Of a stretch of 37,284 nt of DNA, positions 1 to 20,975 are shown piece by piece. The translations under genes and the position numbers were made by a program. This DNA is from Allokutzneria sp. NRRL B-24872 (lineage in GTDB: Bacteria; Actinomycetota; Actinomycetes; Mycobacteriales; Pseudonocardiaceae). Each line of letters opens with the position of its first letter. Position 1 is the stretch's first letter. The notes beneath the pieces are model-generated. The model was not told the DNA's origin, did not search any database, and saw only the letters and a program-made list of their open reading frames with translations. The stretch covers positions 1 through 37,284 of the forward strand of contig NZ_MUMH01000098.1 of assembly GCF_002155965.1 (NCBI RefSeq), in the 5' to 3' direction.

Positions 1-119
1 TCGGTGGTGGGTTGTCTGCGGGCGGCATGGCTGACTCCTCGTGACGGCGGGGCTCAGCCTGGCACGTCCCGCGATGATCGCCAAGTCCTGCCCCTGATGG
101 AGTAATTCCCTGGTAGCAG

Positions 120-133
120 AGGACTTTCGGCCA
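120..133 (+). promoter_or_regulatory. DosR-type box upstream of the nitroreductase
   Basis: The 14 bases read AGGAC-TTTC-GGCCA, one mismatch per half from the GGGAC-N4-GGCCC pattern that recurs in this window. The site lies 73 bases before the ATG at 207, a suitable distance for an activator. The family knowledge is that DosR (DevR) binds GGGAC-N4-GTCCC-like dyads. Assignment here is by eye and by context. Confidence 0.5.
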
Positions 134-206
134 TGGTTTGCACGGATGGAGCACGCGCATCGTTGAGGCGGAAACGTTCGCGACCCAGTTGAGTAGGTGC
201 ACGACG

Positions 207-1205
207 ATGGACGAGGCGACCACGGCGTTCGGCCTGACCACGACGGAGATCGACGGGGCGCTCCGACTGGCCTCGCTCGCCCCGTCGGTGCACAACAGCC
301 AACCCTGGCGGTTCGCGGTGCTGCCCGACCGGATCGAGCTGCACGCCGACCCGGAGCGCAGACTGCCCGCGACCGATCCCGAGGACCGAGAACTCCGGCT
401 GGCGTGCGGGGCCGCGCTGTTCAACCTCCGCATCGCACTGGAGGAATCGGGAATCCGGCCGTTGACGACGCTCGTTCCCAACGGGAGCGGGAGCTCGCCG
501 CTGGCCGTGGTGCGCTACGGAGGCCGCTCGCGGCCCTCGGCGCAGCGAACGCGCCTGCTGCGCGCGGCGCGTGGCCGCCGCACCAACCGGCGGCCCTTCA
601 TCGATGTGGCCGTCCCCTCCGGGCATCGGGCGGAGCTGGTGCGCGCGACCGAGGCCGAGCGCGCCTGGCTGCACGTCCTCTCCACCGGGCAGGAACGCGC
701 CGCGCTGCGCGAGCTCGTCAACCGGGCCCACCGCGCGCAACTGGCCGACCCCGCGTTCCTGGCCGAGTTCACCGCGTGGACCGGGCACGCCGGTGGCAGG
801 CAGGACGGGGTACCACCCGGCTCCGCCGGACCGCGCCCGGAGCCCCAGGACGAGTGGGTGCTGCGCGACTTCGCCGCCGGTCAGGGACGCGAGCGCGTCG
901 TCGGCAAGGACTTCGAGTCGCAGCCGCTGCTAGCGGTGCTGTGCTCCTTCCACGAAGGCGATCTCGCCCAGGTTCAGGCGGGGCAGGCGCTGCAACGGCT
1001 GCTGCTCACCGCGACGACGCTCGGGCTGGCCGCGTCGTTCCTGTCCCAGCCCATCGAGGTCCCCTCGGTCCTGGCGGAGCTGCGCCACGCGCTCGGCATC
1101 ACCCTGACCCCGCAAGCGGTGCTGCGCCTGGGATTCGGCTCCGCCGTGCCCGCCACGCCGCGCCGCCCGGTCGCCGATCTGCTCCTGCCCCAGCCGGCCC
1201 CGTGA
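207..1205 (+). CDS. Acg-type nitroreductase-fold flavoprotein
   Basis: This 332-residue protein belongs to the Acg family (Rv2032, Rv3131 and Rv3127 of M. tuberculosis), which has a degenerate nitroreductase fold that holds FMN. The N-terminal segment LASLAPSVHNSQPWRF (about residues 21-36) is the family hallmark; the C-terminal part has TTLGLAASFLSQPIEVPS and a final RLGFG element. Length fits the roughly 330-residue mycobacterial proteins. I chose the ATG at 207 rather than the in-frame ATG at 138, because conserved sequence begins just after it and the longer form would run into the DosR-type box at 120-133. Acg proteins are dormancy-regulon members thought to store or sequester flavin; true reductase activity is doubtful. 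The stop lies 14 bases before the next gene, suggesting an operon with the CBS protein. Confidence 0.88.
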   Translation: MDEATTAFGLTTTEIDGALRLASLAPSVHNSQPWRFAVLPDRIELHADPERRLPATDPEDRELRLACGAALFNLRIALEESGIRPLTTLVPNGSGSSPLAVVRYGGRSRPSAQRTRLLRAARGRRTNRRPFIDVAVPSGHRAELVRATEAERAWLHVLSTGQERAALRELVNRAHRAQLADPAFLAEFTAWTGHAGGRQDGVPPGSAGPRPEPQDEWVLRDFAAGQGRERVVGKDFESQPLLAVLCSFHEGDLAQVQAGQALQRLLLTATTLGLAASFLSQPIEVPSVLAELRHALGITLTPQAVLRLGFGSAVPATPRRPVADLLLPQPAP

Positions 1206-1219
1206 GCGAGGAGAACGCC

Positions 1220-1585
1220 GTGCCCGTCGACACGCTGATGTCCAGCCCCGCCATCACCGTCCGCCCGGAGACCCCGGTGCTGGCCGCCGCCGCGCTGATG
1301 ACGGCGCACGGCTACACCCTCCTGCCCGTGACCGACCACAGTGGACAGTTGCTCGGGGTTGTCGACGAGCTGGCCCTGCTCAAGGGGTGCGGAGCGGGAG
1401 CCGTCGGCGCGGTCATGACCTCACCCGCGCGCGGAATCGACGTCGGCGCCGGGAGCGAGGAGCTCGCCGAAGTCCTGCTCGGTGACGGCATCCGCGCCGT
1501 CCCGGTCACCGACGGCAGCACCGTCGTCGGTGTCATCACGCGCCGGGACCTGCTCCGCTCCCTTGTCCGTTCGGCGCTCGGCTGA
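1220..1585 (+). CDS. Two-CBS-domain protein (Rv2626c/HRP1-like)
   Basis: A 121-residue protein made of two CBS motifs: the first around DTLMSSPAITVRPETP to VDELALL, the second around VMTSPARGIDV to GVITRRDLLRSLV. Stand-alone CBS pairs bind adenosyl nucleotides in many proteins. The closest known type by layout is hypoxic response protein 1 (Rv2626c), which is 143 residues; its ligand and partner are unsettled. The GTG at 1220 has a GAGGAGA ribosome site 5-6 bases upstream. An alternative GTG at 1202 overlaps the previous stop as GTGA and would add six residues. The gene follows the Acg-type gene in the same direction and probably shares its promoter. Its last 50 bases overlap the 3' end of the convergent PPOX gene. 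Confidence 0.85.
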   Translation: MPVDTLMSSPAITVRPETPVLAAAALMTAHGYTLLPVTDHSGQLLGVVDELALLKGCGAGAVGAVMTSPARGIDVGAGSEELAEVLLGDGIRAVPVTDGSTVVGVITRRDLLRSLVRSALG

Positions 1586-1988
1586 CGGTGGTCGTCGTGC
1601 CCGGGATCCTGCGACCGTGCAGGATCCCGGGCACGATCACGAAGAAGACCGGGTGCTCCCCCGGTGCCCATGCGCGCAGCCCCAGTGCCAGCAGGGCGTC
1701 CCGTTCCGCGGGCTCGCGCACCACCCTGGCGTAGCCGACCGCGGTCACGCTCCAGCCCGTCCGAAGCGTCGCGTCGACGTCGTCAACCTCGAAGGCCACG
1801 ACGGCGTTGCGCACCGCCGCCGCGAGCTTTCCCCCGTGCCCGGTCCGAAAGACGACGCTGCCGTCGTGCAGCACGAAGTTGACCGGTACCACCGCGGGCA
1901 ACGCCTGATCGGTGTAGGCGATCCGGCCCAGCTGGGCGGTTCCGAGCAGGCGCAGGCACTCCTCGGTGCCCAGGACTTCCAGTTCCAC
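1536..1988 (-). CDS. PPOX-fold flavin-binding protein (Rv0080-like)
   Basis: A 150-residue pyridoxamine 5'-phosphate oxidase-like split-barrel protein. It begins MELEVLGTEECLRLL and has the typical GRIAYTD...PAVVPVNFVLHDGSVVFRT strand pattern, SVTAVGYARVV in the middle and a closing GRRI motif. Members bind FMN, F420 or haem; the sequence does not say which. Rv0080 of the M. tuberculosis DosR regulon is the same kind of protein. The start is GTG, preceded by AGGGAGAAGAAC. It follows the DoxX gene by 70 bases on the same strand and is probably co-transcribed. After the conserved GRRI the frame continues about 17 low-complexity residues and overlaps the convergent CBS gene by 50 bases. An 18-bp hairpin lies inside the coding end. 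Confidence 0.85.
   Translation of the reverse strand: MELEVLGTEECLRLLGTAQLGRIAYTDQALPAVVPVNFVLHDGSVVFRTGHGGKLAAAVRNAVVAFEVDDVDATLRTGWSVTAVGYARVVREPAERDALLALGLRAWAPGEHPVFFVIVPGILHGRRIPGTTTTVSRAPNGQGSGAGPGA
1595..1636. terminator. Perfect 18-bp hairpin, bidirectional terminator
   Basis: TCGTGCCCGGGATCCTGC (1595-1612) is repeated in exact inverse at 1619-1636 with a six-base loop. It sits just past the CBS stop and inside the last codons of the PPOX gene, so it could end transcription from both convergent genes. There is no clear T-run on either side. Confidence 0.7.
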
Positions 1989-2002
1989 GTTCTTCTCCCT
2001 GA

Positions 2003-2049: not shown

Positions 2050-2057
2050 TTTCTGCT

Positions 2058-2630
2058 TCAGGCCAACCACCCGTGCCGCCGCACGACCTGGCGCGACTCC
2101 CAGGTACGACCGAGCCCCCACGTGTTGCCCGCGTGGGTCGCCGCCAGCGCGATCAGCACCAGCGCGTAGATCACGTGGTAGTCGATGAGCGGGTTGGTCG
2201 AGCCGCTCGGCGCGCCCGAGGCGCTCACCTGGGCGAGCGGCCACTCCGCCACCCACATCAGCAGCATCATCACCGTCCCGGCGACCGCGGCGAGCCGCAG
2301 CCCGGCCCCGAACAGCACCGCCACCCCGATCCCGGCCAGTCCGAGCATGAACAGCCAGTCGACCCACCACGCCCCGGCGATGGCGCGCAAAGGCTCCCGG
2401 AACGGACCGACGTCCACGCGCCCGAGGAACCCCGCTGTCGGCGAGCCTCCGCCCAGCCATGCCTTGGCAGCGGGCGTGGCGTAGCCCAAGCCGAAGAGCT
2501 TGTCGAAGAAAGCCCACAGGAACAGCAACCCCGTCGCGACGCGCAACAGGGCCATCGACTTCTCCGCGGGGCCGCTGCTGTGGAACGGAACTCGGTTCCG
2601 CTTGGTGCCCGGGTCGTTCTGGATGGACAT
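2058..2630 (-). CDS. DoxX-family membrane protein
   Basis: A 190-residue protein with four predicted membrane helices, for example MALLRVATGLLFLWAFFDKL, WVDWLFMLGLAGIGVAVLF, LAAVAGTVMMLLMWVAEWPL and YHVIYALVLIALAATHAGN. The arrangement and the FFDKLFGLG loop fit DoxX/DoxD proteins, which are linked to thiosulfate:quinone oxidoreductase and, in mycobacteria, to thiol redox complexes. The ATG at 2630 has AGGAGGTGGGAC just before it; longer in-frame starts up to 2720 lack that. It is the first gene of a likely DoxX-PPOX operon. A DosR-type box (2684-2697) lies 54 bases upstream. The exact electron donor cannot be read from the sequence. Confidence 0.85.
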   Translation of the reverse strand: MSIQNDPGTKRNRVPFHSSGPAEKSMALLRVATGLLFLWAFFDKLFGLGYATPAAKAWLGGGSPTAGFLGRVDVGPFREPLRAIAGAWWVDWLFMLGLAGIGVAVLFGAGLRLAAVAGTVMMLLMWVAEWPLAQVSASGAPSGSTNPLIDYHVIYALVLIALAATHAGNTWGLGRTWESRQVVRRHGWLA

Positions 2631-2697: not shown

Positions 2698-2834
2698 CGC
2701 TGCCAAGGGATTCCGGGCATCGATCACTTTGATCCACAGTAGACACCTCCTGGCGCGGCGGAAGGGCCTTTCGCCTCTGGCGCCAACGCTCGCCCGCGCG
2801 TTGCCTGGAAAGGCGACGACCACCGGAGGCTCCG

Positions 2835-3536
2835 ATGTCCGCCACCACCGCAGTACGGTCACCCGGCTCGCGCACCAAGCCCCGCAAGCGCGCCACCCGC
2901 CTCACCGTGGGCACCGACGGCTCCTACTGGGGCGACGTGGCACTGACCTGGGCACGACGCCACGCCACCGCGACGGACGGCGACCTGCGCATTGTGAACC
3001 GGCCCGAGCCCAACCCCCTGCCCGCCCTGCTCGCGGCGAGCGCCGGATCGCGGATGCTCGTCCTCGGCTGCCGCGGCGAACGGCACCGCGCCTTCGGTCT
3101 GGGAGCTCTCGTGCTGCCCACCGCGGGCTCCGCCCGCTGCGACACCCTCGTCGTGCGAGGACTCTGGTCGGCGATCGCCGCGCGGCACGGCCGGATCACC
3201 GCCATGGTCAGCGGTGGCGACCACGACACCGCGGTGCTGCGCTCGGCCGCCGGGCTCGCCACCGCCTACGGCGCCGAGCTCCACGTGCACGCGCGCCCGC
3301 ACGGCGGCGCGCTCGACCACGCGAGGAGGTGGCTGGCCGAGAACGCACCCGCCGCACGCACATCGCTGCACCCGGACGAGCAGAGCCCGCACGACGCGAT
3401 CCTGCGCGCGAGCGACTCCGACGTCCTGGTCCTGGGGCGCGGCGCGACCTCCCACTGCGGCACCGTCGCCCGCTTCGCCCTCCACCACGCGCCGTGCCCG
3501 GTGCTCGTCGCGGGATCTTCCGCTCCTGCCAGCTGA
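2835..3536 (+). CDS. Universal stress protein, two-domain with shortened first domain
   Basis: A 233-residue UspA-fold protein. The first domain opens RLTVGTDGSYWGDVALTWA (about residues 21-39) but is cut short: the usual middle helices are missing and it goes quickly to SRMLVLGCRGERHRAFGLGA. The second domain covers about residues 115-233, including DVLVLGRGATSHCGTVARFALHHAPCPVLVAG, the normal USP end. USPs of the M. tuberculosis DosR regulon (for example Rv2005c, Rv2623) bind ATP through G-x2-G-x9-G(S/T); the second domain has only a partial match. The ATG at 2835 follows GGAGGCTCCG. It is divergent from the DoxX gene and probably shares the control region. Confidence 0.82.
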   Translation: MSATTAVRSPGSRTKPRKRATRLTVGTDGSYWGDVALTWARRHATATDGDLRIVNRPEPNPLPALLAASAGSRMLVLGCRGERHRAFGLGALVLPTAGSARCDTLVVRGLWSAIAARHGRITAMVSGGDHDTAVLRSAAGLATAYGAELHVHARPHGGALDHARRWLAENAPAARTSLHPDEQSPHDAILRASDSDVLVLGRGATSHCGTVARFALHHAPCPVLVAGSSAPAS

Positions 3537-3706: not shown

Positions 3707-4075
3707 TCACGCCATGTGGTGCCGCCGGTGCACTTCACGGCTCGCCGGCAATGCGGTCAGCGTGGAGACGACCACCACGACACCGATGACCCACGACGTC
3801 CACGTGGCGGTGTTGTTCCCCACGTAGGAGAACAACCACGGAGCGACAAGCATGGCGACACCCGCCGCCGCCATCACCCACTCGTCGATGTAGGCGCCCG
3901 GCATCGCCAAAGCGCCGAGCGCCAGCCCACCGATCACCACGCCGATGATCACCATGGCCCAGCTCCCGGCCGTACCGACCTTCAGCCACAACGGAAACGA
4001 CGCGATCACCGCGCCGGCCATCAGACTCACCCAGTCCTGAACACGGGTCCAGGACCTGGCTCGCGTGTCAGACAT
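3707..4075 (-). CDS. SPW-repeat membrane protein
   Basis: A 122-residue protein with four predicted membrane helices in two similar halves: DWVSLMAGAVIASFPLWL then SWAMVIIGVVIGGLALGAL; EWVMAAAGVAMLVAPWLFSY then SWVIGVVVVVSTLTAL. The W-x-P-W-like pattern at the end of the first helix of each half is the SPW repeat, found in small membrane proteins of unknown function. The ATG at 4075 is preceded by GGAGGTGAG at a good distance; a GTG at 4081 would sit on top of that site. A strong DosR-type box at 4126-4139 lies about 50 bases upstream, so the gene probably has its own stress promoter, separate from the hsp20 gene 112 bases further upstream. Confidence 0.82.
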   Translation of the reverse strand: MSDTRARSWTRVQDWVSLMAGAVIASFPLWLKVGTAGSWAMVIIGVVIGGLALGALAMPGAYIDEWVMAAAGVAMLVAPWLFSYVGNNTATWTSWVIGVVVVVSTLTALPASREVHRRHHMA

Positions 4076-4125
4076 GACCACTCACCTCCACTGGTAAGCC
4101 TTGTGCGCCAACGGTGGTAGTGACA

Positions 4126-4139
4126 GGGACCAAGGTCCG
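4126..4139 (-). promoter_or_regulatory. DosR-type box upstream of the SPW gene
   Basis: GGGAC-CAAG-GTCCG on the plus strand is almost a perfect dyad and one of the best matches to the classical GGGAC-N4-GTCCC DosR site. It lies 51 bases before the SPW start codon. A second partial match, GGGCC-CTGC-GGCAC, follows at 4149-4162. Confidence 0.6.
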
Positions 4140-4187
4140 CAGGCGGCTGGGCCCTGCGGCACTGGCCGCGGGAACGCAACCGGTCGC

Positions 4188-4592
4188 CTACATCCTCTTG
4201 ACCGGGATCCGGTGCTCTTCGTCGATGTCTCTCCTGGGCATCCTCACTTCGAGGATTCCGCCCTCGTAGCGCGCTTCGACGGCGGAGGGGTTGACGCTCG
4301 GTGGCAGGCTGACGGTGCGCTTCACCGCCCCGTAGTGGAATTCGCTGTAGGTCTTCTCCTGCTTCTCGTCGGTCCGTTCAGCCTCGATGCTCAGGTCTCC
4401 GCCCTTGACGGTGACCTTGATGTCGTCCGGGTTCACGCCCGGCAGCTCAGCGCGCAGAACGTAGTCGTCGTCGGTGACGCGGTCCTCCAGACGAAGCTGT
4501 TGGCGAGCGGTGAACAGGGTGAACGGGAATCCGTTCTTGAGCCGGTGGAGTACCTCCGGCACCCGGGATCCGTGTGGAACCGGTGTCGTCAT
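4188..4592 (-). CDS. Small heat-shock protein, Hsp20/alpha-crystallin family
   Basis: A 134-residue alpha-crystallin-type chaperone (HspX/Acr type) expected to form oligomers that hold unfolding proteins. The alpha-crystallin domain spans about residues 35-130: DDDYVLRAELPGVNPDDIKVTVKGGDLSIEAERTD, then YGAVKRTVSLPPSVNPSAVEARYEGGILEVRMPR, with the A-x-x-x-n-G-v-L signature as ARYEGGILEVRM. It ends HRIPVKRM, an I-x-V tail that may help assembly. The ATG at 4592 has GAGGGG six bases before it; the longer frame to 4631 has no such site. Two DosR-type boxes lie 90-135 bases upstream. In M. tuberculosis hspX is the most strongly DosR-induced gene. Confidence 0.93.
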   Translation of the reverse strand: MTTPVPHGSRVPEVLHRLKNGFPFTLFTARQQLRLEDRVTDDDYVLRAELPGVNPDDIKVTVKGGDLSIEAERTDEKQEKTYSEFHYGAVKRTVSLPPSVNPSAVEARYEGGILEVRMPRRDIDEEHRIPVKRM

Positions 4593-4682
4593 CTGTTGCC
4601 CCTCTGCGGCAGTAGTGCTCTGAGACCTCAACAGAACGCCCAGAGCGCCCGAGCGGCACAGAGGTGCTCGACCCCGATCTCC

Positions 4683-4726
4683 GGGACCAAAGGCCCTGAG
4701 CGGTCGCCGACCGGGACCAAGGACAC
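4683..4726. promoter_or_regulatory. Tandem DosR-type boxes between hsp20 and the small gene
   Basis: GGGAC-CAAA-GGCCC (4683-4696) is a perfect match to the motif of this window. A second copy, GGGAC-CAAG-GACAC (4713-4726), starts exactly 30 bases later, about three helical turns, so both would be on the same DNA face. CACCGGTGG overlaps its end at 4724-4732. The pair lies between the divergent hsp20 gene and the 56-residue gene at 4805 and may serve both. Confidence 0.65.
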
Positions 4727-4804
4727 CGGTGGTCGGGGTCGTCCCGCAGGCGCGGTGAGCGCGGCCGGCTGCTGGACTGAACCGGAGACGAGGAAGTGAG
4801 TGCC

Positions 4805-5024: not shown

Positions 5025-5501
5025 ATGCCCAGTGTGCAAGAAGCAGCAGCGCGATTCCTGGCCCACAAGAGGATCGCGGTGACCGGGGTCTCGCGGAACC
5101 CGCGCGATCACGGCGGCAACATCGTCTACGTCAGGTTGCGGGCTCGCGGGTACGAGGTGTTCGCGGTCAACCCCAACGCCGAGGAGGTCGAGGGCGATCC
5201 GTGCTTCGGGGACCTGAAGTCGATCCCCGGTGGTGTCGACGCCGTGGTCGTCGCCACCCGTCCGGACGTCGCCGAGGCCACCATGCGGGAGTGCGTCGAG
5301 CTGGGCATCGAGCAGGTGTGGATGCACCGCGCGTTCGGTCCCGGCAGCGTGTCCGCCGCGGCGGCGGCGTACGGCCGCGAACACGGGGTCGCGGTGATCG
5401 CCGGGGGCTGCCCGCTGATGTTCGAGCCCACCTCCGACCTCGGGCACAGGATCATGCGCTTCGTGCTCACCCGGACCGGCGCGGTCCCCGGCCAGGTGTG
5501 A
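5025..5501 (+). CDS. CoA-binding domain protein (YccU type)
   Basis: A 158-residue single-domain Rossmann protein of the CoA-binding/YccU family. It opens VQEAAARFLAHKRIAVTGVS (about residues 4-23), a glycine-poor nucleotide loop typical of this family, followed by GYEVFAVNPNAEEVEG, VDAVVVATRPDVAEATMREC and EQVWMHRAFGPGSVS. It ends with a CPLMFEPT element. These are the stand-alone relatives of succinyl-CoA ligase alpha subunits; their physiological role is not established. The ATG at 5025 follows GGAGGAGGACAGCC. It is probably the second gene of an operon with the 56-residue frame. It converges on the histidine kinase gene, whose stop is 199 bases away. Confidence 0.87.
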   Translation: MPSVQEAAARFLAHKRIAVTGVSRNPRDHGGNIVYVRLRARGYEVFAVNPNAEEVEGDPCFGDLKSIPGGVDAVVVATRPDVAEATMRECVELGIEQVWMHRAFGPGSVSAAAAAYGREHGVAVIAGGCPLMFEPTSDLGHRIMRFVLTRTGAVPGQV

Positions 5502-5700: not shown

Positions 5701-7317
5701 TCAGGACAACGGGACGCGCCAGGTGAGCCGTGTCCCGCCACCCGGTCTCGGTGCGCACACGGCGGTTCCACCGCAGAGCAGCGCCCGCTGCTCGATGTTG
5801 GCCAGTCCGCTGCGCACCACCCCTTCGGGAATTCCCGCGCCGTCGTCGACGACCTCGATCACGAAATCGGCGGCGGCCTCAGCGGTCACCACGATCGTGC
5901 TGGCCCCGGCGTGCCGGACCGCGTTGCTGACCCCCTCCCGGAGCGCCGCCTCGGCGTGCTCGGCGATCTCCGGCGGCACCAGCGTGTCGACCGCGCCCGC
6001 CATCCGCACCGAGGGCGCGGGCCCGCCGGCCGCGGACGCCTCCGCTGCCACGCTGAGCAGGCGATGGCGCAGGCTGTCGGAGTTCTCTTCTCCCGCGCTG
6101 TGCAGGTCGAAGATCGAAGTTCGGATGTCGCGCACGGTCTCATCCAGCTGGTGCACCACCTTCTGGACCCTCGCCCGCACGTCCGGTTGGGCGATCAGGT
6201 GCAACGTGCCTTGCAAGCTCATGCCCGAGGAATCGAGCTGCTGGATGACGTGGTCGTGCATGTCGTGCGCGATGCGGTCCCGGTCGGCCAGCACGTCCAG
6301 CAACCGCCGCGTCCGCTGGGTCTCGGCGGCCTCCAGGGCGAGCGCGGCCTGGTCGGCGAAGGAGGCCAGCACCGGCACCTGCTCCGGCTCGAACTGCGGC
6401 ACGCCCCTGTCCCGCACGGCCAGCAGCACACCGCTGATCCCGGCAGCGGTCCGCAGCGGCACCGCGAGCGCCGGCCCGAGCAGGTCGGCGTGCTCGCCGG
6501 GGTCGGCCTCGACGGTGGCGCCCAACTCCGGGATGAGGCTGGTGCCACCGGAGCGGAAGACCTCGGCGATCGGCGCGGCGGTGGCGGCGACCATCGACCC
6601 CAGCAGCCGGTCCGCACGTTTCCCCGCGGTGGTCCTCACCGTCAGGCTTCCCCCGTCGTCGACGAGCAGCATCAGCACGCTGTCGGCGTGGGAGAGCTCA
6701 GTGGCGCGTTGGGCGACCAGGCGCAGCGCGTCGTCGGTGGAGGTACCACCCAGTAGCTCAGCGCGGATCTCCGAGGAGGCTTCCAACCAGCGCTGACGCA
6801 TCTGGCTCTGCTCGAACAACCGGGCGTTCTCGATCGCCGCACCCGCCGCCGCGGCCAGTGCCTCCAGCACCACGGCGTCATCGGCGGCGAACGCCGCGGC
6901 ACCCTGTTTCTCGGTCATGTACAGGTTGCCGAAGACCTCCTCGCGCACCCGCACCGGAGCTGTGAGGAAGCCGCCCGTCGGCGAGTGGTTCGCCGGGCAA
7001 CCGACCCAAGCCGGGTGATCACCCAGGTTCGGCAGCCCCGCGCAGACGAACTCCGACAGGCCCTCGCGCTTGCCCAGCACGCCCAGCGCGCCGTACTTCG
7101 CGTCGACGAGGTCAACAGCGGCCTGCACGATCCGCTGCAACGTCGAGTCCAGCTCCAGCCCTGTCCCCACCGCGAGCACCGCGTCGATCAACCCCTGGAC
7201 GCGGTCGCGCGTCTTGACGATCTCGGCGAGGCGGTCCTGCACCTCTCTGAGCAGCTCATCCAGCCGCAGACCGCTCAGCCCCGCGCTCGGCGACAGCGGG
7301 ATCTCCGTGACGGACAT
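5701..7317 (-). CDS. DevS/DosT-type GAF-GAF sensor histidine kinase
   Basis: A 538-residue cytoplasmic kinase with the layout of DevS/DosT: N-terminal helix with ELLREVQDRL, GAF-A (about 45-165), GAF-B (about 185-335), a HisKA_3 dimerisation domain and a C-terminal HATPase. The phosphorylated residue is probably His354 in HDMHDHVIQQ; the ATP N-box is EGVSNAVRHAGAS and the G-box DDGAGIPEG. In DevS/DosT, GAF-A binds haem through a histidine in an NHPP motif; here NHSP supplies His111. However, GAF-A lacks about 30 residues before that histidine: FVCAGLPNLGD joins directly to HPAWVGCPANHSP. Haem binding may therefore be altered. The ATG at 7317 follows AGAGGAGTTGGCGCC. No response regulator gene adjoins it. 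Confidence 0.92.
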   Translation of the reverse strand: MSVTEIPLSPSAGLSGLRLDELLREVQDRLAEIVKTRDRVQGLIDAVLAVGTGLELDSTLQRIVQAAVDLVDAKYGALGVLGKREGLSEFVCAGLPNLGDHPAWVGCPANHSPTGGFLTAPVRVREEVFGNLYMTEKQGAAAFAADDAVVLEALAAAAGAAIENARLFEQSQMRQRWLEASSEIRAELLGGTSTDDALRLVAQRATELSHADSVLMLLVDDGGSLTVRTTAGKRADRLLGSMVAATAAPIAEVFRSGGTSLIPELGATVEADPGEHADLLGPALAVPLRTAAGISGVLLAVRDRGVPQFEPEQVPVLASFADQAALALEAAETQRTRRLLDVLADRDRIAHDMHDHVIQQLDSSGMSLQGTLHLIAQPDVRARVQKVVHQLDETVRDIRTSIFDLHSAGEENSDSLRHRLLSVAAEASAAGGPAPSVRMAGAVDTLVPPEIAEHAEAALREGVSNAVRHAGASTIVVTAEAAADFVIEVVDDGAGIPEGVVRSGLANIEQRALLCGGTAVCAPRPGGGTRLTWRVPLS

Positions 7318-9730: not shown

Positions 9731-9823
9731 CACGGCACCGAACTCCTTCGCCTCTTCCCCCCGTTGACCACCACTCTTCGCGCCCGGACGCCGGTCGACC
9801 AGACTCCAACGACACCGCGCGGC

Positions 9824-9837
9824 GGGACCTATGGCCC
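9824..9837 (-). promoter_or_regulatory. DosR-type box upstream of the DUF4389 operon
   Basis: GGGAC-CTAT-GGCCC is a perfect match to the motif of this window, 94 bases before the ATG at 9730. It lies between the DUF4389 gene and the end of the LysE gene, with no competing promoter seen. Confidence 0.6.
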
Positions 9838-9913
9838 TGCGCCCGCCCCAGCCATCCGCGGCGAGGGCGCGCACTGGTCGGCCGAGGGCTGGAGCCGGTG
9901 TCCTCCGCCGGAC

Positions 9914-11994: not shown

Positions 11995-12036
11995 GCCGCT
12001 CAGCCTCGCCACCGGCAGGCGGCCCCGCACGAGCCA

Positions 12037-13467: not shown

Positions 13468-13788
13468 CGTCGTGACGCGGCCACTGCTCACCGGCCTTCG
13501 GTTTCCTCCCCGCCTCGGCGCCGGCAACCCGCGGCGGAGCGCTTCCTTGCCGGTGGCGACGAGTTCGGCCCGATGCCTTGGCCCCCAACGAGATCGACAG
13601 AGGGAGTCGGTCGTCCCCGCAACCGGACCGCTTCTCTTCCAGCGCCGTCGGTCGAGCGGCCGCCGGGGCTCCCGTCGCTCTCACGCAGCACTGTCCCGCT
13701 CACGTGGCTCTCCGGTTCTCCCCGACCTCCGCCTTCGAGCCTCGTGGGCGCGGACGTTCGCGCTCAGAGCAGCGAGACCCCGATCGGC
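13468..13788. other. Intergenic region after the MocR gene, no gene seen
   Basis: About 320 bases with no convincing frame on either strand. A short minus-strand stretch (13488-13703) reads DGSPGGR and REAVRLRGRP, faintly like a universal stress protein, but the match is too weak to call. The DosR-type box at 13789 marks the start of the next control region. Confidence 0.4.
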
Positions 13789-13831
13789 GGGACCAACGGC
13801 CCTGGCCGGCCCACAGGGGGCACCGGTGGAC
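13789..13831 (+). promoter_or_regulatory. DosR-type box and partner site upstream of the hibernation factor
   Basis: GGGAC-CAAC-GGCCC (13789-13802) is a perfect match to the window motif, 68 bases before the ATG at 13870. Thirty bases on, GGCAC-CGGT-GGACT (13819-13832) is a weak second copy. The element CACCGGTGG at 13821-13829 is also present beside the hsp20 boxes (4724-4732). Confidence 0.6.
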
Positions 13832-13869: not shown

Positions 13870-14559
13870 ATGAGAACCGTTGCCCACAGCGCGCTTCCCG
13901 AGGCGGAACTGAGCACGGCGGGCGCGGTACCGCTCGGCACCGACGAGTACACCCGCAAACGGCTCGCCGGGCTGACGCGTGTCGCCCCAGCTCCCGTCGA
14001 CCGCGTCCGAGTGCGGCTGAGCCGTGCGACGGAGTCGGGTGACCGTTCAGCGGTCGTCAAGGCAGCGCTGCACATCAGCGGACGCGTCGTCCGGGCGCAC
14101 GTCGCGGCGCCGACCTTCCGCGAGGCGGTCGACCGAATGCGCGACGTCCTGCACCACCGGCTGTCGGTACTCGGCTCGCTCCGTTCGGAACCGCCGCACC
14201 AACGGGCTGAGCACCGTCCCGCGCGAGTCCGCCGCGACCCCGCCGACCGAGATTTGGTGCGCCGCAAAACCTACGCGGCGGAGCCGATGAGCGTCCTCGA
14301 CGCACGGGTCGACATGGACCTGCTCGATCACGACTTCTACCTGTTCGTCGACCAGGAGACCGGCCGGGATGCCGTGGTCGCGCACGACGACACGGTGCTG
14401 GACGCAGACGCAGCACCGGTGCTGACCGTTGCCCAAGCGGTCGAGCGACTCGACCTCAGCGACGAGCCGTTCGTGTTCTTCGTCGACCCGGACACCGGTC
14501 GGGGCACGTTGGTCTACCTCCGCTACGACGGGCACTACGGCCTCATCGGTCCGCGATGA
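13870..14559 (+). CDS. Ribosome-hibernation (S30AE)-like stress protein, Rv0079 type
   Basis: A 229-residue protein related to hibernation-promoting factors. Residues about 44-105 resemble the N-terminal S30AE/HPF fold (VDRVRVRLSRATESGDRSAV, VVRAHVAAPTFREAVDRM). It is followed by two C-terminal dimerisation-type units: RRKTYAAEPMSVLDARVDMD-LLDHDFYLFVDQETGRDAVV (about 131-170) and a second ending VFFVDPDTGRGTLVYLRYDGHYGLIGPR (about 185-229). The first matches the usual R-K-x-f-x-x-x-P-M-s-v-x-e-A pattern. Rv0079 (DATIN), a DosR-controlled ribosome-associated protein, is the nearest known type. The ATG has AGAGGAACCG before it. Expected role: stopping or storing ribosomes under hypoxia. Confidence 0.85.
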   Translation: MRTVAHSALPEAELSTAGAVPLGTDEYTRKRLAGLTRVAPAPVDRVRVRLSRATESGDRSAVVKAALHISGRVVRAHVAAPTFREAVDRMRDVLHHRLSVLGSLRSEPPHQRAEHRPARVRRDPADRDLVRRKTYAAEPMSVLDARVDMDLLDHDFYLFVDQETGRDAVVAHDDTVLDADAAPVLTVAQAVERLDLSDEPFVFFVDPDTGRGTLVYLRYDGHYGLIGPR

Positions 14560-15346: not shown

Positions 15347-15913
15347 CTAGCCGCGGTGGATCCAGTCGCGCTCCACGCGCTCCCAGTCCGCCCCCCACGC
15401 CGTCACGCGGCCGCGGTCGAGGACCAAGCGCACCGCTCCGTACACGACGCCACTCGCCCCACCTGCGACGACGAGCACACCGAGGGTGACGAGCGCCGAC
15501 ATCCACGTCAGAGCCGCCCCCTCCAGGGGTGGCGGGATCGGCGTCCCCGCGGCGTCGAGCCACACCGGGACGGTCGTGCCCGCACGGGCTCCGGCAGGAG
15601 CGAAGACCTCGCCTTCGCGCGGTGTTCCGTCCGGCGCGGTCCACTGGCCGCGGACCTTCGCCCCTGTGGACACGACGAGCAGTTCCGAGGTGATGACTTC
15701 CGGCGGCGCGTCGTGCTCCAGCACCGCCGTGCTCCGGTGTGCCGCCGTCGAGGTGCCCAGCCGCTCGTGCGCCACCGACCCGGCGACCAACGCCAACGGA
15801 ACCACGGCCAGAACGCACAGCACCAGCAGCACGACCACCGCGCTCTCGACGTGATCGGAGAACCGCCGCAGCGGATTCCGATCCAGCCCCAGTCTCCGCA
15901 CCATGCGACCCAT
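15347..15913 (-). CDS. Rv1733c-type two-helix membrane protein
   Basis: A 188-residue membrane protein of the family of Rv1733c, a DosR-regulon antigen. After an N-terminal RNPLRRFSDHVESAVVVLLVLCVL (about 12-35; helix 1 runs on to LALVAG) comes an extracytoplasmic domain of about 80 residues with VRGQWTAPDGTPREGEVFAP and GTTVPVWLDAAGTPIPPP, then helix 2 (LVTLGVLVVAGGASGVVYGAV) and a short basic tail with WGADWERVERDW. The same order is found in Rv1733c (RNPLVR, W...G..R.GEV, VWVD..G). Function unknown. The ATG at 15913 follows GGGAGGCGTG; a longer frame to 15967 would run into the operator. It is divergent from the DUF2267 gene across a symmetric DosR-like site. Confidence 0.83.
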   Translation of the reverse strand: MGRMVRRLGLDRNPLRRFSDHVESAVVVLLVLCVLAVVPLALVAGSVAHERLGTSTAAHRSTAVLEHDAPPEVITSELLVVSTGAKVRGQWTAPDGTPREGEVFAPAGARAGTTVPVWLDAAGTPIPPPLEGAALTWMSALVTLGVLVVAGGASGVVYGAVRLVLDRGRVTAWGADWERVERDWIHRG

Positions 15914-15967
15914 CACGCCTCCCTCGCCGACTTCTTTCGCTCCCAAGGTTTTCGTGGTCTCCGCCAA

Positions 15968-15996
15968 CGACCAAGGGTCCTTGTGCCCTTGGTCGC
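15968..15996. promoter_or_regulatory. Symmetric double DosR-like operator between divergent genes
   Basis: CGACCAAGGG (15968-15977) is inverted exactly at 15986-15995 around an eight-base centre. On the minus strand the stretch reads as two abutting imperfect boxes, GCGAC-CAAG-GGCAC (15996 to 15983) and AGGAC-CCTT-GGTCG (15981 to 15968). It lies 55-70 bases from both starts (15913 and 16051), so one site may control both genes. Confidence 0.5.
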
Positions 15997-16050: not shown

Positions 16051-16728
16051 ATGAGCACCCATCGATCGGCCAGCTTCGCCCACGCGGAGAACACGGCGCA
16101 CCACTGGCTCGCCACGATCTCCGACCACCTGGGTACCCACGATCCACACCTGACCTATCGCTGCACGCGGGCCTGGATGCACGCCGTCCGGGACCACTTG
16201 AGCGTGGACACCACGGCGAACCTCGCCGCACAACTGCCGGAGCTGCTGCGCGGGGTGTTCTACGAGGGCTGGGACCCGAGCCGGGTGCCCTCGAAGCAGG
16301 ACGCGACCGGCTTCGTCACCGAGTTCGTCCTGTCAGCCCGGGTCTCCACGGCCCAAGCTGCCGACACCCTCGCCGCGGTCACCACCGCGCTGCGCTCGCT
16401 GCTCGCCCCTGGCACGCTCAACCGCGCCCTCGCCCAGCTGCCCAAGGGAATCCGGCTCCTGGTCGACTCCGCACCCGAGCCGCGACGCCAACCCCCGAAA
16501 GCACCCGGGCTCCAGGAGCGCGTCGAGCGGCTGGAGAACGACGTGCGGGCACTCGCCGAGGCGATCAGGCTGCTGGCTCGCGGAGTCGACGCCACGATCG
16601 TCCCGCTGGAGCCCGTCGGTGAGGACGGCATGGTGCAGTCCACCCGCCAGGCCCGGCAGGCACTGCTGGCCATTGGCAGGCCGGCGCCCGTCGCCGAGAC
16701 GGTACCGGCCCAGGGCGGTGCACGGTGA
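16051..16728 (+). CDS. DUF2267 protein
   Basis: A 225-residue soluble protein with a DUF2267 domain over about residues 10-135: AENTAHHWLATISDHLG, RAWMHAVRDHLSVDTTANLAAQLPELLRGVFYEGWDPS, then a second helical repeat FVLSARVSTAQAADTLAAVTTALRSLL and ALAQLPKGIRLLVD. This pattern of two alpha-helical repeats with QLP-LLRG and QLP-IR-LV is diagnostic. The C-terminal part has a short coiled coil (LQERVERLENDVRALAEAIR). Function unknown; DUF2267 genes are common near stress genes. ATG 16051 follows GAGGAGGCGGC. The gene overlaps the SHOCT gene (GTGA) and shares a control region with the Rv1733c-type gene. Confidence 0.83.
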   Translation: MSTHRSASFAHAENTAHHWLATISDHLGTHDPHLTYRCTRAWMHAVRDHLSVDTTANLAAQLPELLRGVFYEGWDPSRVPSKQDATGFVTEFVLSARVSTAQAADTLAAVTTALRSLLAPGTLNRALAQLPKGIRLLVDSAPEPRRQPPKAPGLQERVERLENDVRALAEAIRLLARGVDATIVPLEPVGEDGMVQSTRQARQALLAIGRPAPVAETVPAQGGAR

Positions 16729-16955
16729 CGCCGTGGCACACCGGCCCCTGGGGCTGGTCCGGCATGGTCTTCATGATCGTCATGATGTTGCTGTTCTGGG
16801 GCGGACTGCTCACGGTCATTCTGACTGTGCTGCGCCACCCCCGGTTCACCCGGCACCGGCTCACCGAGGCGGAGCGCATCCTGGCTGAGCGGCTGGCCAG
16901 GGGCGAGATCGACGAGGACGAGTACAAGCGCCGAACGGCGACGCTGCGGCACTGA
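16725..16955 (+). CDS. SHOCT-domain membrane protein
   Basis: A 76-residue protein with one membrane helix (SGMVFMIVMMLLFWGGLLTV, about 13-32) and a C-terminal SHOCT motif (AERILAERLARGEIDEDEYKRR, about 49-70). SHOCT is a short helical hairpin found at the ends of many stress or membrane proteins and thought to mediate interaction. The GTG start overlaps the DUF2267 stop as GTGA, so the two are co-translated and may act together at the membrane. Confidence 0.85.
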   Translation: MTPWHTGPWGWSGMVFMIVMMLLFWGGLLTVILTVLRHPRFTRHRLTEAERILAERLARGEIDEDEYKRRTATLRH

Positions 16956-17775: not shown

Positions 17776-18522
17776 TCAGCAGGGGTGTCCAGTTCTCCGG
17801 CGCAGAACCCAGCTCGCCGCGGCGGCCACTCGTTCGGCCAACCTGACATCGGGTCCAGCGGGCAGGTACAGCTCCGGCGGGGTGGCCATGACGAGCGCGA
17901 GCGCGCAGGCGTGGTGGACCGGGACGTCCACTCTCGCCCCGGGCACCTCGCTGAGCGCCCGGAGCAGTCCGGGCAACGCAAGCAGCTCCTCGCGCCCGGT
18001 CGCGGAGGTGATCACAGCGGGTTCAGGGGGGACGTCGTCGGCGCGCGGATCGAGCAGATCGACGATCACGTGCGCGTTCACGGCGATTCGCCGCAGGGGG
18101 AAACCCATGGCGTCGTCGCGGTTCCACGCGGTGATGTCGGCGATCCCGGCGGCTGTCAGCACGGGACACAGGATCGGCAGCTGATCCGCTCCCGCGACGA
18201 CGACCCGGCCGGTCTGCGGAGCGCGCCCCTGCTGGAGGAGGAGCGTGAGCACGTTGGCCGTGAGCGCGGCCGCGAGGGTGTCCTGCTCGGTGAGGACGGG
18301 AACCTCCACCAGATCACGCACCGCGCGCACGTGGTGCGGCCGTGCGTTGACCACGAGAACCACAGCGGCACCAGCGAGGGTGGCGTGCAGGTCGGCCCCG
18401 AACGGGATGACGTGGCACGACAGCTCTGCGATGTTCTCGATGACAGTCACCAGGCGCTGAGTGGCATCCGCGGTGCTCCCTTCGGGGACGACGAGAGCGA
18501 CGGTCTTGCGGTGTGTGGTCAT
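17776..18522 (-). CDS. Malic-enzyme-like Rossmann protein without the catalytic part
   Basis: A 248-residue protein. The middle (about 93-150) reads VPVLTEQDTLAAALTANVLTLLL then GRVVVAGADQLPILCPVLTAAGIADITAWN, which follows the order seen in malic enzymes (p-V-f-h-D-D-x-h-G-T-A, then r-V-V-x-G-A-G-a-A-g). Key acid residues and the standard G-x-G-x-x-G/A loop are changed, and the N-terminal catalytic domain is replaced by about 90 residues with little similarity. It is therefore unlikely to be a working malic enzyme; a nucleotide-binding or regulatory role is possible. ATG 18522 follows GGGAGGACGTTCC. It is the third gene of the SulP operon, 13 bases after the 68-residue gene. The end converges on the truncated membrane gene. 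Confidence 0.6.
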   Translation of the reverse strand: MTTHRKTVALVVPEGSTADATQRLVTVIENIAELSCHVIPFGADLHATLAGAAVVLVVNARPHHVRAVRDLVEVPVLTEQDTLAAALTANVLTLLLQQGRAPQTGRVVVAGADQLPILCPVLTAAGIADITAWNRDDAMGFPLRRIAVNAHVIVDLLDPRADDVPPEPAVITSATGREELLALPGLLRALSEVPGARVDVPVHHACALALVMATPPELYLPAGPDVRLAERVAAAASWVLRRRTGHPC

Positions 18523-18535
18523 GGAACGTCCTCCC

Positions 18536-18742
18536 TCATCCGTCGAGAGTCGCGGCGTCGAGCACGGCGGGGTCCACCCAGCCGGTGACGTCGACATCGT
18601 TGCGGACGGCCAGATCGAGCAGGTCGCGGACACGTGCTCCGTGCAGGTGGACCTCGTAGTCGTGCCCGGCCGCTCGGGCAGCCGACAGCGCCGTCAGCCG
18701 CTCAGCGATCTGATCGCGCACTGTTGCGCTGAACTCGCTCAT
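18536..18742 (-). CDS. Small conserved-looking protein of 68 residues
   Basis: Encodes MSEFSATVRDQIAERLTALS, then RAAGHDYEVHLHGARVRDLLDLAVRN and DVDVTGWVDPAVLDAATLDG. The first part is an amphipathic helix; the second ends in an acidic tail. The ATG overlaps the SulP stop (ATGA) and the stop lies 13 bases before the malic-enzyme-like gene, so it is firmly embedded in the operon and is almost surely expressed. I do not recognise a family; it may be a partner of the SulP transporter. Confidence 0.7.
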   Translation of the reverse strand: MSEFSATVRDQIAERLTALSAARAAGHDYEVHLHGARVRDLLDLAVRNDVDVTGWVDPAVLDAATLDG

Positions 18743-20382
18743 GTCCGTTGTTCTCCGGTGCTCAGGTGTGCGACGGCACAGGCGACGGCTTCGTCCGTAC
18801 GGGGGTGGAGGTGTCCGCGTTCCCGGAGGCCGGCCAGCGCGTCCACGGCCTCCAGAGCGCGTTCGTGGTCAGGGCGGACGCCGGAGACGAGCACCAGTTT
18901 TCCTTTGCTCTCAAGGACTTCGATGGCATCGCGCAGAGCCAGCGCACCGGTGGCGTCCACCGCGCTGACACCGGACATTTTGAGGATCACCACGCGTGCG
19001 TCACAGGCGTCGCTGACCCGGTGCACAAGGCGGTGGGCCGCGGTGAACAGCAATGGCCCGTCGAACCGGTAGGCCACGACGTACTGGGCGAGGCCGACGG
19101 TGAGCTTCTCCACGCCGGAGCACCGGGCGACATCGCGCAGTGCGAGTCCGCCCGCGACCACGACGCCGATGATGACCGCGGCGACCAGGTCCAGGGCGAG
19201 CGTGGCGACGGCGGTGACCACGAGCACGAGAGCGTCTCCGCGACCGGCGCGCACCACCGCGCGCACGGATCTGACCGCGACCATGCGGATGGCCGTGGCC
19301 AGCAGGACGCCCGCGAGCGCGGCCAGCGGGATTCGCGCCACCAACGGCGCGGCGGCGACCGCGATGGCCGCCAGCACGAGGGCGTGAGCGAGCGCCGCCA
19401 ACCGGGAACGGGCGCCGGATCGAACGTTGACCGCAGTGCGCGCGATGGCCGCGGTGGCGGGGACGCCCCCGAACATCGGCGTGATCAGATTCGCCAGTCC
19501 TTGGCCGAACAGCTCCCGGTCGGGATCGTGCTTCTGGTCGCCGGCCATCGCGTCGGCGACCGTTGCCGAGAGCAGGCTTTCCAAGGCGGCCAAGGCCGTC
19601 ACGGCGACTGCGGCCGGCACGAGCGCGCCCAGCTCGTCCAGCCGCAGGAAGCCGAGGTCCGGAGCGGGCAGTCCTGCGGGCAGCGCGCCGATCCGCTCGA
19701 CCGGCAGCGACCACACCTCCGCGGCGGCGGTGGCGGCGGCCACCGCGAGCAGCGAGAACGGGATGGCGGGCCGCCACCGCGCACCGAGAAGCATCACCAC
19801 CGCCACTCCGGAAGCCAGCAACAGCGCGGTCCACACGGGCTGGGCCAGGAAGTCCGCGACCGCGCGGGCGGCGACCACCGGCACGTGTTCCGAGGGGGCG
19901 GGGGGCGTGCCGAGCGCGGCGGGCACCTGCTGCAGAGCGATCACTCCGGCGATGCCCAAGGTGAAGCCCTCGATGACCGGTGCGGGCACCAGGCGTGCGT
20001 ACCGACCCGCGCCCACCCCTGCCAGGGCCAGCAGGAGCACTCCCGCGAGCAGCCCGACGGTGAGAACGCCGTCGACCCCGTGGGCGTGCGCGATCGGCAC
20101 CAGGACCACGGTCATCGCGCCGGTGGGTCCGGACACCTGCAGGTTCGAGCCGCCGAACAGCGCCGCGACCGCGCCCGCGACGACCGCGGTCACCAACCCC
20201 GCTGCCGCGCCCAGACCCGAGGAGGCGCCGAACCCCAACGCCAACGGGAGCGCGATCACCGCGACGGTGACACCGGCCAGCAGGTCACGAGGCCGGGCCG
20301 GTGCCCAGTCGGCTCGCGTTGGCAGCAAACGGACGAGGCCGCGCGCCCACCCGCCCGCACCGGTGTGACCGGATTTCCCCAC
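18739..20382 (-). CDS. SulP-family anion transporter with STAS domain (Rv1739c-like)
   Basis: A 547-residue SulP/SLC26 permease. The membrane part (about 25-420) opens PRDLLAGVTVAVIALPLALG and GGSNLQVSGPTGAMTVVLVP, the family's N-terminal motifs, and has many hydrophobic helices, including PVIEGFTLGIAGVIALQQVP and NLITPMFGGVPATAAIARTA. The C-terminal STAS domain (about 440-547) has FDGPLLFTAAHRLVHRVSD, VILKMSGVSAVDATGALAL and GKLVLVSGVRPDHERALE. Substrates of the family include sulfate, bicarbonate and dicarboxylates. The GTG at 20382 follows GGGAGGCTCTG. It heads a three-gene operon divergent from an Rv0081-type ArsR regulator. Rv1739c lies in the DosR regulon neighbourhood of M. tuberculosis. 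Confidence 0.9.
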   Translation of the reverse strand: MGKSGHTGAGGWARGLVRLLPTRADWAPARPRDLLAGVTVAVIALPLALGFGASSGLGAAAGLVTAVVAGAVAALFGGSNLQVSGPTGAMTVVLVPIAHAHGVDGVLTVGLLAGVLLLALAGVGAGRYARLVPAPVIEGFTLGIAGVIALQQVPAALGTPPAPSEHVPVVAARAVADFLAQPVWTALLLASGVAVVMLLGARWRPAIPFSLLAVAAATAAAEVWSLPVERIGALPAGLPAPDLGFLRLDELGALVPAAVAVTALAALESLLSATVADAMAGDQKHDPDRELFGQGLANLITPMFGGVPATAAIARTAVNVRSGARSRLAALAHALVLAAIAVAAAPLVARIPLAALAGVLLATAIRMVAVRSVRAVVRAGRGDALVLVVTAVATLALDLVAAVIIGVVVAGGLALRDVARCSGVEKLTVGLAQYVVAYRFDGPLLFTAAHRLVHRVSDACDARVVILKMSGVSAVDATGALALRDAIEVLESKGKLVLVSGVRPDHERALEAVDALAGLRERGHLHPRTDEAVACAVAHLSTGEQRT

Positions 20383-20430
20383 CAGAGCCTCCCTGACCGC
20401 CGACCGCCGACCGCCCGGCCATCATTCTGC

Positions 20431-20467
20431 TCAATTGCGAAAATCTGCAACTCTGCAACTCAATGAG
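20431..20467. promoter_or_regulatory. Candidate operator between SulP and ArsR genes
   Basis: A locally A/T-rich stretch in a GC-rich setting. It contains TTGC (20435-20438) and GCAA (20447-20450) as an inverted repeat around eight bases, then the direct repeat CTGCAACT-CTGCAACT (20445-20460). ArsR-family proteins bind such short dyads near their own start. The stretch lies 50 bases from the SulP start and 70-100 bases from the ArsR start and may control both. Confidence 0.4.
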
Positions 20468-20536
20468 GTCGGTCACATCGGGCCGCGTGCGACCTCCGCG
20501 CCCACGGCAGCGGGCTCGACAGGGGAAGATGGGGGC

Positions 20537-20935
20537 ATGACAGGGTCGCGACTCCGGCGGACGGCTACCGCCGAGGACGGGGTGTCCACACCGACGCGCC
20601 AGCCGCTCTACCTGCTCAAGGCGGAGTTCTTCAAGACGTTGGGGCACCCGGTGCGCATCCGCGTGCTCGAACTGCTCAGCCAGCGCGAGCACTCCGTCGC
20701 CGAGATGCTGCCGCAGGTCGGTGTCGAGCCCGCGAACCTGTCACAGCAGTTGGCCGTGCTGCGGCGAACCGGCCTCGTCACCAACCGCAAGACCGGCTCG
20801 ACGGTCCACTACGCCCTGACCAGCCCCGAGGTGGCGGAACTGCTCGCGGTCGCCCGGCGCATCCTCGGCGGAGTCCTTGAGGGGCAAGCCGAACTCCTCG
20901 CCGACCTCAACGCCACGGCCAAGGACGGGGAGTAG
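20537..20935 (+). CDS. ArsR-family regulator, Rv0081 type
   Basis: A 132-residue winged-helix regulator. The core (about 22-100) reads PLYLLKAEFFKTLGHPVRIR, VLELLSQREHSVAEMLPQ, VGVEPANLSQQLAVLRRTGL and VTNRKTGSTVHYAL, then SPEVAELLAVARRIL. This is strikingly like Rv0081, a member of the DosR regulon with many targets. The recognition helix is NLSQQLAVLRR. There is no cysteine, so thiol-metal sensing of the ArsR/SmtB kind is excluded; the signal is unknown. The ATG at 20537 is preceded by GGGGAAGATGGGGGC. Divergence from the SulP operon across a 150-base gap with repeats suggests direct control of that operon and autoregulation. Confidence 0.88.
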   Translation: MTGSRLRRTATAEDGVSTPTRQPLYLLKAEFFKTLGHPVRIRVLELLSQREHSVAEMLPQVGVEPANLSQQLAVLRRTGLVTNRKTGSTVHYALTSPEVAELLAVARRILGGVLEGQAELLADLNATAKDGE

Positions 20936-20975
20936 ACCGCGACGACCGCGCCGAGTGGCCGCACTACCCACCGCT

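Follow-up and report, generated by a model that had tools for sequence, protein, structure and literature searches.

A probable DosR/OsdR-type regulon island, rich in fermentation genes, in an Allokutzneria-like actinomycete

Gene families of the window and of the adjoining contig

We analyzed the 37,284-nucleotide contig NZ_MUMH01000098.1 of Allokutzneria sp. NRRL B-24872 (hereafter, the window; contig C474 of the 8.19-Mb draft genome), in which an initial annotation had proposed that a DosR-like dormancy regulon is gathered into one 21-kb island at positions 1 to 20,940. In Mycobacterium tuberculosis, the genes of the DosR regulon lie at scattered loci. Our analysis indicates that the stretch very probably belongs to an island holding a DosR/OsdR-type regulon for hypoxia and stress, which the window shows only in part.

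Profile searches bore out the Acg-family nitroreductase, the PPOX protein, the SulP transporter, and the Rv1733c-family protein (Table 1), and the SPW, DUF4389, DUF2267, and CoA-binding proteins also scored above their cut-offs. The predicted hibernation factor (Rv0079) has RafH as its best match, far ahead of the next (4e-8), and is nearer to RafH than to the standard HPF. Similarly, the best solved ArsR match of the proposed Rv0081-type regulator is Rv0081, with the next best at 2e-12. The DoxX and SHOCT proteins came near their cut-offs but fell just under them. Hsp20, which had been equated with Rv2031c, was supported at the family level, and 0 of 25 matches in its search were named HspX or Rv2031c (organism names were not displayed). 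The two-CBS protein, proposed to be Rv2626c, is only distantly related to it (E = 1.4e-5; rank 20 of 28 among solved CBS proteins); for these two proteins the comparison with M. tuberculosis is loose. The universal stress protein (USP) passed on its whole-protein score, but no single stretch of it passed, and the 11 matches listed by a Usp search of the whole genome include none on the contig of the window. For the protein labeled SRPBCC, the profile search found no Pfam family. The kinase gave its best Protein Data Bank matches to the GAF-A and ATPase domains of DosT/DevS, as proposed, but has a 30-residue gap in GAF-A that had gone unmentioned. Also unlisted were a LysE transporter and a DUF885 protein within the stretch, both probable passengers.

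The unit runs left past the end of the window. Window bases 1 to 260 are the reversed end of a second contig, C459 (31,959 bp), in an exact 260-bp overlap, and C459 then closes with 25 bases that repeat window positions 253 to 277 in reverse complement. A hairpin at 253 to 277 is the probable cause of the assembly break within Acg, and the 25-base inverted end of C459 is what a hairpin artifact would resemble. The divergent Acg/kinase junction recurs in genomes G034 (closed), G057, G179, and G088 and in one of two regions of G022, which supports the join. We therefore rejected the 21-kb stretch as the entire island: positions 1 to 16,955 form one end of a larger island that spans at least 48 kb.

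The adjoining contig carries a DosR-family response regulator (C459:1972-2622; phmmer match to DevR 3c3w, 2e-85 over 213 residues) and a full-length DevS/DosT-type kinase, which in alignment has a complete GAF-A and the phospho-histidine motif DMHDHVIQ. It also holds 8 of the 11 listed Usp-domain matches of the genome and a second Acg (NF047509, 228 bits). The profile search identified a pyruvate formate-lyase (PFL; TIGR01255, 1123 bits) and its activase (TIGR02493), and the phosphoketolase, acetate kinase, glyceraldehyde-3-phosphate dehydrogenase (GAPDH), and phosphoenolpyruvate synthase were all above cut-off; an acetate-CoA ligase-like protein and a zinc alcohol dehydrogenase (ADH)-like protein were below equivalog cut-offs. 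One operon runs in the order phosphoketolase-USP-Acg-USP-ADH-PFL-activase. From their sequences, outside the profile test, we take three further proteins to be CBS-BON proteins and two to be P-type ATPases.

A palindromic box before the units of the island

An expectation-maximization search from random-word starts, run on 166 upstream regions of relatives outside the host genus, returned the palindrome nCaGGGnCntanGnCCCtGn, the DosR/OsdR box, and a DosR-shaped seed converged on the same result. This palindrome is close to the OsdR consensus AGGGCCGATCGGCCCT given for Streptomyces in the accessible text of PMC5069765. We scanned C459 joined to window positions 1 to 20,940 (52.6 kb), with 13 stretches (260 kb) as background. 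Among intergenic boxes scoring at least 8, 11 fell in the joined stretch (6.0 kb of intergenic DNA), none to its right (4.0 kb), and 1 in the background (26.5 kb); coding DNA held 3 more in the island and 4 in the background. At a cut-off of 6, the corresponding intergenic counts were 15, 2, and 5. Column-permuted matrices at a cut-off of 8 gave a mean of 0.29 and a maximum of 3. No weight was placed on a first, mixed matrix, which included composed consensus words for M. tuberculosis. Counting GGGAC-N4-GTCCC across the genome with one mismatch allowed gave 352 per strand and, with the pattern reversed as control, 281, which was not informative.

Units were then scored with a matrix retrained without the host genus and without G088, G016, and G022. 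Fifteen of the 22 scorable units have a box whose score is matched or exceeded in no more than 1 of 130 background units; since divergent pairs use common boxes, these 15 units represent 10 distinct boxes. The distance from box center to called start is mostly 65 to 160 bp, and the three shorter distances (12, 14, and 28) belong to genes whose called starts are doubted. The automatic unit caller treated 14 C459 genes as a single unit, so that an internal box before phosphoketolase (11.3 in the leave-genus-out scan) was hidden in this scoring. It also set a spurious frame over DUF885, a gene with no box match of at least 5 within ∼390 bp upstream.

The shared motif on which the initial annotation had leaned is thus real, but the boxes end near 16 kb, and an end of the regulon at 20,940 is therefore unsupported. 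SulP and ArsR, beyond DUF2267-SHOCT, have best upstream scores of only -0.6 and -0.9, which places the end of the boxed part of the window at 16,955. Among the suggested new members, the motif supports DoxX, SPW, DUF4389, DUF2267, and, by operon, SHOCT; the CoA-binding protein, like SulP and ArsR, has no strong box, and membership by shared motif is therefore unsupported for all three.

The island in relatives

A kinase match (E ≤ 1e-60) was found in 155 of 200 genomes of the family, covering 37 of 46 genera. In 18 kinase regions of 17 to 60 kb from 16 genomes, picked nonrandomly by score and contig quality, we counted DosR (at least 55%) in 15, Acg in 14, USP in 13, CBS in 11, and phosphoketolase in 8. 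SulP was present in three of these regions and ArsR (at least 55% identity) in four, which makes them recurring neighbors; we regard SulP-ArsR as a neighbor with its own regulator. A blastp search (1e-6) of the 13 background stretches of the host genome (20 kb each) found no tallied family, although the genome-wide Usp search placed a single Usp-domain match in the stretch from C6. In the congener G034, a 38-kb region (1,341 to 1,379 kb) holds 13 boxes of at least 7.5 and most of the same families, with no such box in its flanks (∼42 kb). Comparison of gene order across Pseudonocardiaceae, as the initial annotation had suggested, revealed that the same families recur, but that their order, membership, and unity vary; the island is not universal in the family. 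No such island in Pseudonocardiaceae was found among the literature matches listed, subscription papers being mostly out of reach.

Two further observations came from these genomes. G022 has two DosRS loci (at 9.45 Mb and 0.94 Mb), each adjoining SulP-ArsR; their kinases do not differ over the GAF-A stretch compared, and the sensor locus was probably duplicated recently. At G158:C2:369731-370000 and G171:C1:381031-381309, the S30AE-like matches contain an in-frame TGA and are possibly pseudogenes.

Fermentation genes under the box

Within the family, pflB is present in 18 of 200 genomes (8 of 46 genera), and in at least 7 of the 18 it lies within ∼52 kb of a kinase. Upstream of the pfl unit, all 15 scorable units outside the host genome exceed the 95th percentile of the 130 background units (5.06), and 10 of the 15 exceed the 99th (7.25); several come from congeners and are therefore not independent. 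The pfl units of G034 and G104 ran off the fetched stretch and that of the host was merged, and an inner box is present in all three. Outside the family, we considered 18 loci in 17 genomes. Of 20 non-family genomes matched in one search, 13 were included, and a second search added the 4 genomes not yet taken whose matches reach 70% identity; the sample left out the other 7 of the 20 and the 13 genomes of the second search with matches of 59 to 64%. A box of at least 7.5, scored as the best over up to three genes, precedes the pfl unit in 13 of the 18 loci (families f4, f13, f15, and f18) and is absent before it in the other 5 (G394, G349, G620b, G492, and G704). As a control, among genes of the same loci that are neither like island homologues nor next to them, 1 of 143 reaches 7.5, as do 3 of 209 genes in the background of the host.

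Part of this association has been published. In the accessible text on S. lividans (PMC6302529), the putative pyruvate formate-lyase SCO0206 is coexpressed with OsdR, as are many genes between SCO0162 and SCO0219; the coexpressed genes include those for PFL, pyruvate phosphate dikinase (PPDK), ADH, USP, nitroreductase, PPOX, and CBS-type proteins, and the activase is described as a putative pseudogene. We accordingly withdrew the idea that PFL in this regulon was unreported. What we add is the conservation of the box before pfl and an intact fermentation operon, from which direct regulation appears plausible at the sequence level. On balance, we favor the view that DosR/OsdR is a direct fermentation switch in aerobic actinomycetes. 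Pyruvate formate-lyase, an enzyme killed by oxygen, would be kept behind a DosR box in five or more families. Its activase would usually accompany it, as would ADH in several genomes and, in the host, phosphoketolase as well. The dormancy response would then include mixed-acid fermentation, to which the host would have added an oxygen-blind second kinase.

A second kinase that lacks part of its heme domain

The window kinase is 77% identical to the kinase of C459 and lacks 30 GAF-A residues that are present in 20 of 20 other aligned kinases. It retains the residues aligned with DosS His149 and Tyr171 (numbered by our own count on the chain), equivalents of the proximal histidine and distal tyrosine, whose roles in DosS as heme ligand and distal residue are described in the accessible text of PMC4082495. 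The congeners G034 and G068 each have a single kinase match at E ≤ 1e-60. We consider the window kinase to be probably a relaxed duplicate, unseen in the two congeners searched, that is either decaying or oxygen blind. The chances that it is a decaying duplicate heading toward a pseudogene seem to us about even. The deletion falls where all the other aligned kinases have sequence, and the rate of change is raised: dN/dS is 0.31 between the window copy and the full copy but 0.14 between the full copy and G034, and polarized amino acid changes in GAF-A, GAF-B, and the kinase domain number 13, 17, and 22 in the window copy and 5, 7, and 3 in the full copy. An open frame and an omega well under 1 argue against decay and would equally suit a functional oxygen-blind kinase providing basal DosR phosphorylation, or acting as a DosR phosphatase. 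DMHDHVIQ is kept around the phospho-histidine, as are the two heme-pocket equivalents, and the DosS kinase core is reported, in the text available to us, to be active alone (PMC4082495). Nevertheless, the excess of changes in all three domains, the replacement of RLY by QLD immediately after DMHDHVIQ, the lack of a strong box, and the single match in each congener speak against function, and we hold this alternative to be possible but the less probable of the two. AlphaFold had low confidence at the deletion, but confidence was equally low for the intact control, and nothing was concluded from it.

Known systems, mechanism, and alternatives

The gathering of such genes in an island is already published for Streptomyces OsdR (PMC5069765, accessible text). 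The OsdR/OsdK islands of S. coelicolor (SCO0167-SCO0219; PMC5069765) and S. lividans (PMC6302529), as far as the available text describes them, have in common with the host a DosR-DosS pair, a near-identical palindrome, and USPs, CBS-type proteins, nitroreductase, PPOX, ADH, and PPDK in one region, together with the coexpressed putative PFL. Phosphoketolase and acetate kinase, found in the host island, go unmentioned for Streptomyces OsdR in the text consulted, and the host activase is intact where that of S. lividans is a putative pseudogene. The host also differs in its RafH-type factor, its Rv1733c-DUF2267 pairs, and its second kinase; no nitrate reductase is among the genes annotated here, although no genome-wide search for it was made. 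We therefore regard the island as one of a known kind in a fermentation-rich version, here with an intact oxygen-free fermentation operon.

The likeness to the DosR (DevR) regulon of M. tuberculosis covers the regulator, kinase, Acg, Rv1733c, RafH/Rv0079-type, PPOX, Hsp20, USP, and Rv0081-type proteins, the CBS protein being only distantly related and Hsp20 alike at the family level; M. tuberculosis is not known to have the fermentation operon. Within Pseudonocardiaceae, G088 has DosRS, Acg, USP, Xfp, AckA, ADH-PflB-PflA, SulP-ArsR, an S30AE-type protein, and a P-type ATPase within 40 kb, whereas other dormancy-type regions differ in gene order and membership.

The gene families, the contig overlap, the box enrichment, and the box conservation in relatives are observed; DosR binding, activation, signal, and physiology we infer from them. 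By analogy with Mycobacterium and Streptomyces, the full-length heme GAF kinase of C459 would phosphorylate DosR in response to falling oxygen or rising NO. DosR would then bind the CAGGGNC-N4-GNCCCTG palindrome, mostly at the distances given above, and may switch on the window units Acg-CBS, USP, DoxX-PPOX, SPW, Hsp20, DUF4389 and its partner, the RafH-type hibernation factor, Rv1733c, and DUF2267-SHOCT. On C459, the predicted targets are DosR itself, acetate kinase-USPs-GAPDH, and the phosphoketolase-to-activase operon. The outcome would be hibernating ribosomes and a fermentation to acetate, formate, and alcohol that yields ATP without respiration.

A gathered DosR-type regulon, as initially annotated, is therefore supported by gene content, by DosR on the overlapping contig, and by box enrichment, although only part of it lies in the window. 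One potential alternative is a general stress island whose genes are inherited jointly under several regulators (sigma factors, ArsR, and others), with the palindrome marking few DosR targets. The Rv0081-type ArsR at the edge would suit such an arrangement, as would the 7 of 22 scorable units without a strong upstream box: the merged 14-gene unit, CoA-binding, the window kinase, LysE, the spurious DUF885 frame, SulP, and ArsR. However, 15 of 22 units are boxed at a broadly similar distance to the start, and in the host, as in G034, the strong boxes run out where the island ends, which makes the alternative quite unlikely in our judgment.

Several other points also weigh against a DosR/OsdR-type island. 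The contig join depends on the 260-bp overlap plus synteny, and beyond the right edge of the island two units reach 6.3 to 6.4, in the top 2.3% of background. The box before Acg scores below 7 when the genus is left out. A matrix built from published Streptomyces sites alone gave a modest signal: at a cut-off of 6 it found 8 intergenic boxes in 7.1 kb, with 2 in 4.0 kb on the right and 4 in 26.5 kb of background; its permuted maxima were 7 at a cut-off of 7 (5 observed) and 5 at a cut-off of 8 (4 observed). Plain GGGAC-N4-GTCCC was not enriched in the window (12 matches; 13.7 expected). Among the 18 kinase regions, those of G079 and G160 hold DosR alone of the tallied families, and in G034, the closest complete congener, DosRS-Xfp lies ∼360 kb from the 38-kb PFL-bearing half, a split that makes the unity of the island variable.

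A DosR/OsdR-type island, if read correctly, has a boundary and a membership defined by motif outside Mycobacterium and Streptomyces, which corrects which genes belong. It also provides a testable link between a dormancy regulator and fermentation in bacteria usually held to be aerobic, and it makes the boxed uncharacterized families DUF2267, DUF4389, SPW, DoxX, and Rv1733c candidates for functions in low-oxygen survival.

Features of the window

The features are collected in Table 1. The Acg gene probably starts at the ATG at 207, a start choice that we infer. No RNA families or tRNAs were found in the window.

Table 1. Genes and DosR-type boxes at the left end of the window (LGO, score in the leave-genus-out scan; ORF, open reading frame)
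Feature	Position	Strand	Evidence
First codons of full-length DevS/DosT-type kinase (rest on C459:258-1961)	1..28	-	260-bp contig overlap
Weak DosR-type box CAGAGGACTTTCGGCCATGG between kinase and Acg	117..136	.	7.2 and 7.4 with two matrices; LGO <7
Acg-family FMN oxidoreductase	138..1205	+	NF047509, 320 bits (cut-off 199); 2ymv
Two-CBS protein	1220..1585	+	PF00571; weak to Rv2626c
PPOX protein (Pyridox_ox_2)	1536..1988	-	PF12900, 3e-29
DoxX-like membrane protein	2058..2630	-	PF07681, 23.2 (cut-off 23.6)
DosR-type box GAAGGGCCTTTCGCCTCTGG, common to USP and DoxX	2761..2780	.	8.7; LGO 8.4
USP-like protein	2835..3536	+	PF00582, 41 bits (cut-off 24)
SPW-repeat membrane protein	3707..4081	-	PF03779
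DosR-type box ACAGGGACCAAGGTCCGCAG before SPW	4123..4142	.	11.1; LGO 11.6
Hsp20/alpha-crystallin	4188..4562	-	PF00011 on longer ORF 4188-4631
DosR-type box TCCGGGACCAAAGGCCCTGA before Hsp20	4680..4699	.	11.5; LGO 11.1
Second DosR-type box ACCGGGACCAAGGACACCGG before Hsp20	4710..4729	.	10.6; LGO 10.7
CoA-binding protein, without strong box	5025..5501	+	PF13380
Second DevS/DosT-type kinase, GAF-A short of 30 residues, without strong box	5701..7317	-	
Protein of unknown family in DUF4389 unit	7755..8408	-	Homologue adjoins DUF4389 in Streptomyces L015
DUF4389 protein	8447..9733	-	PF14333
DosR-type box GGCGGGACCTATGGCCCTGC before DUF4389	9821..9840	.	9.2; LGO 9.4
LysE transporter, without strong box	9914..10498	-	PF01810
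DUF885 protein	10495..12894	-	PF05960, 1.7e-43
DosR-type box GGCGGGACCAACGGCCCTGG before hibernation factor	13786..13805	.	11.1; LGO 11.0
RafH-type ribosome hibernation factor	13870..14559	+	PF02482, PF16321; RafH 8whx, 7e-33
Rv1733c-family membrane protein	15347..15967	-	NF050032, 127.5 bits (cut-off 80), on ORF 15347-16006
DosR-type box CAAGGGTCCTTGTGCCCTTG, common to Rv1733c and DUF2267	15972..15991	.	8.6; LGO 8.5
DUF2267 protein	16051..16728	+	PF10025
SHOCT small protein, last gene of boxed unit	16725..16955	+	PF09851, 26.5 (cut-off 27)
SulP transporter (18739-20382) and small proteins (18536-18742, 17776-18522), no box	17776..20382	-	
Rv0081-type ArsR regulator, no box	20582..20935	+	6jmi, 6e-33

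The divergent Rv1733c-DUF2267 pair occurs twice, at window positions 15347 to 16728 and at C459:3669-4890, with 55% and 76% identity, the latter between the two DUF2267 proteins; each pair has its own shared intergenic box. At window positions 17142 to 17420 lies a short piece resembling the C terminus of a type-B carboxylesterase (23.3 bits, below cut-off), a 67% match of which sits at a boxed island edge in G034. Outside the island, positions 21968 to 34106 encode an EryCIII-like glycosyltransferase, an LCM-type methyltransferase, an ABC transporter, a GH25 lysozyme-like protein, an acyl-CoA dehydrogenase-like protein, a PIG-L/methyltransferase, a glycosyltransferase 2, and a large catalase.

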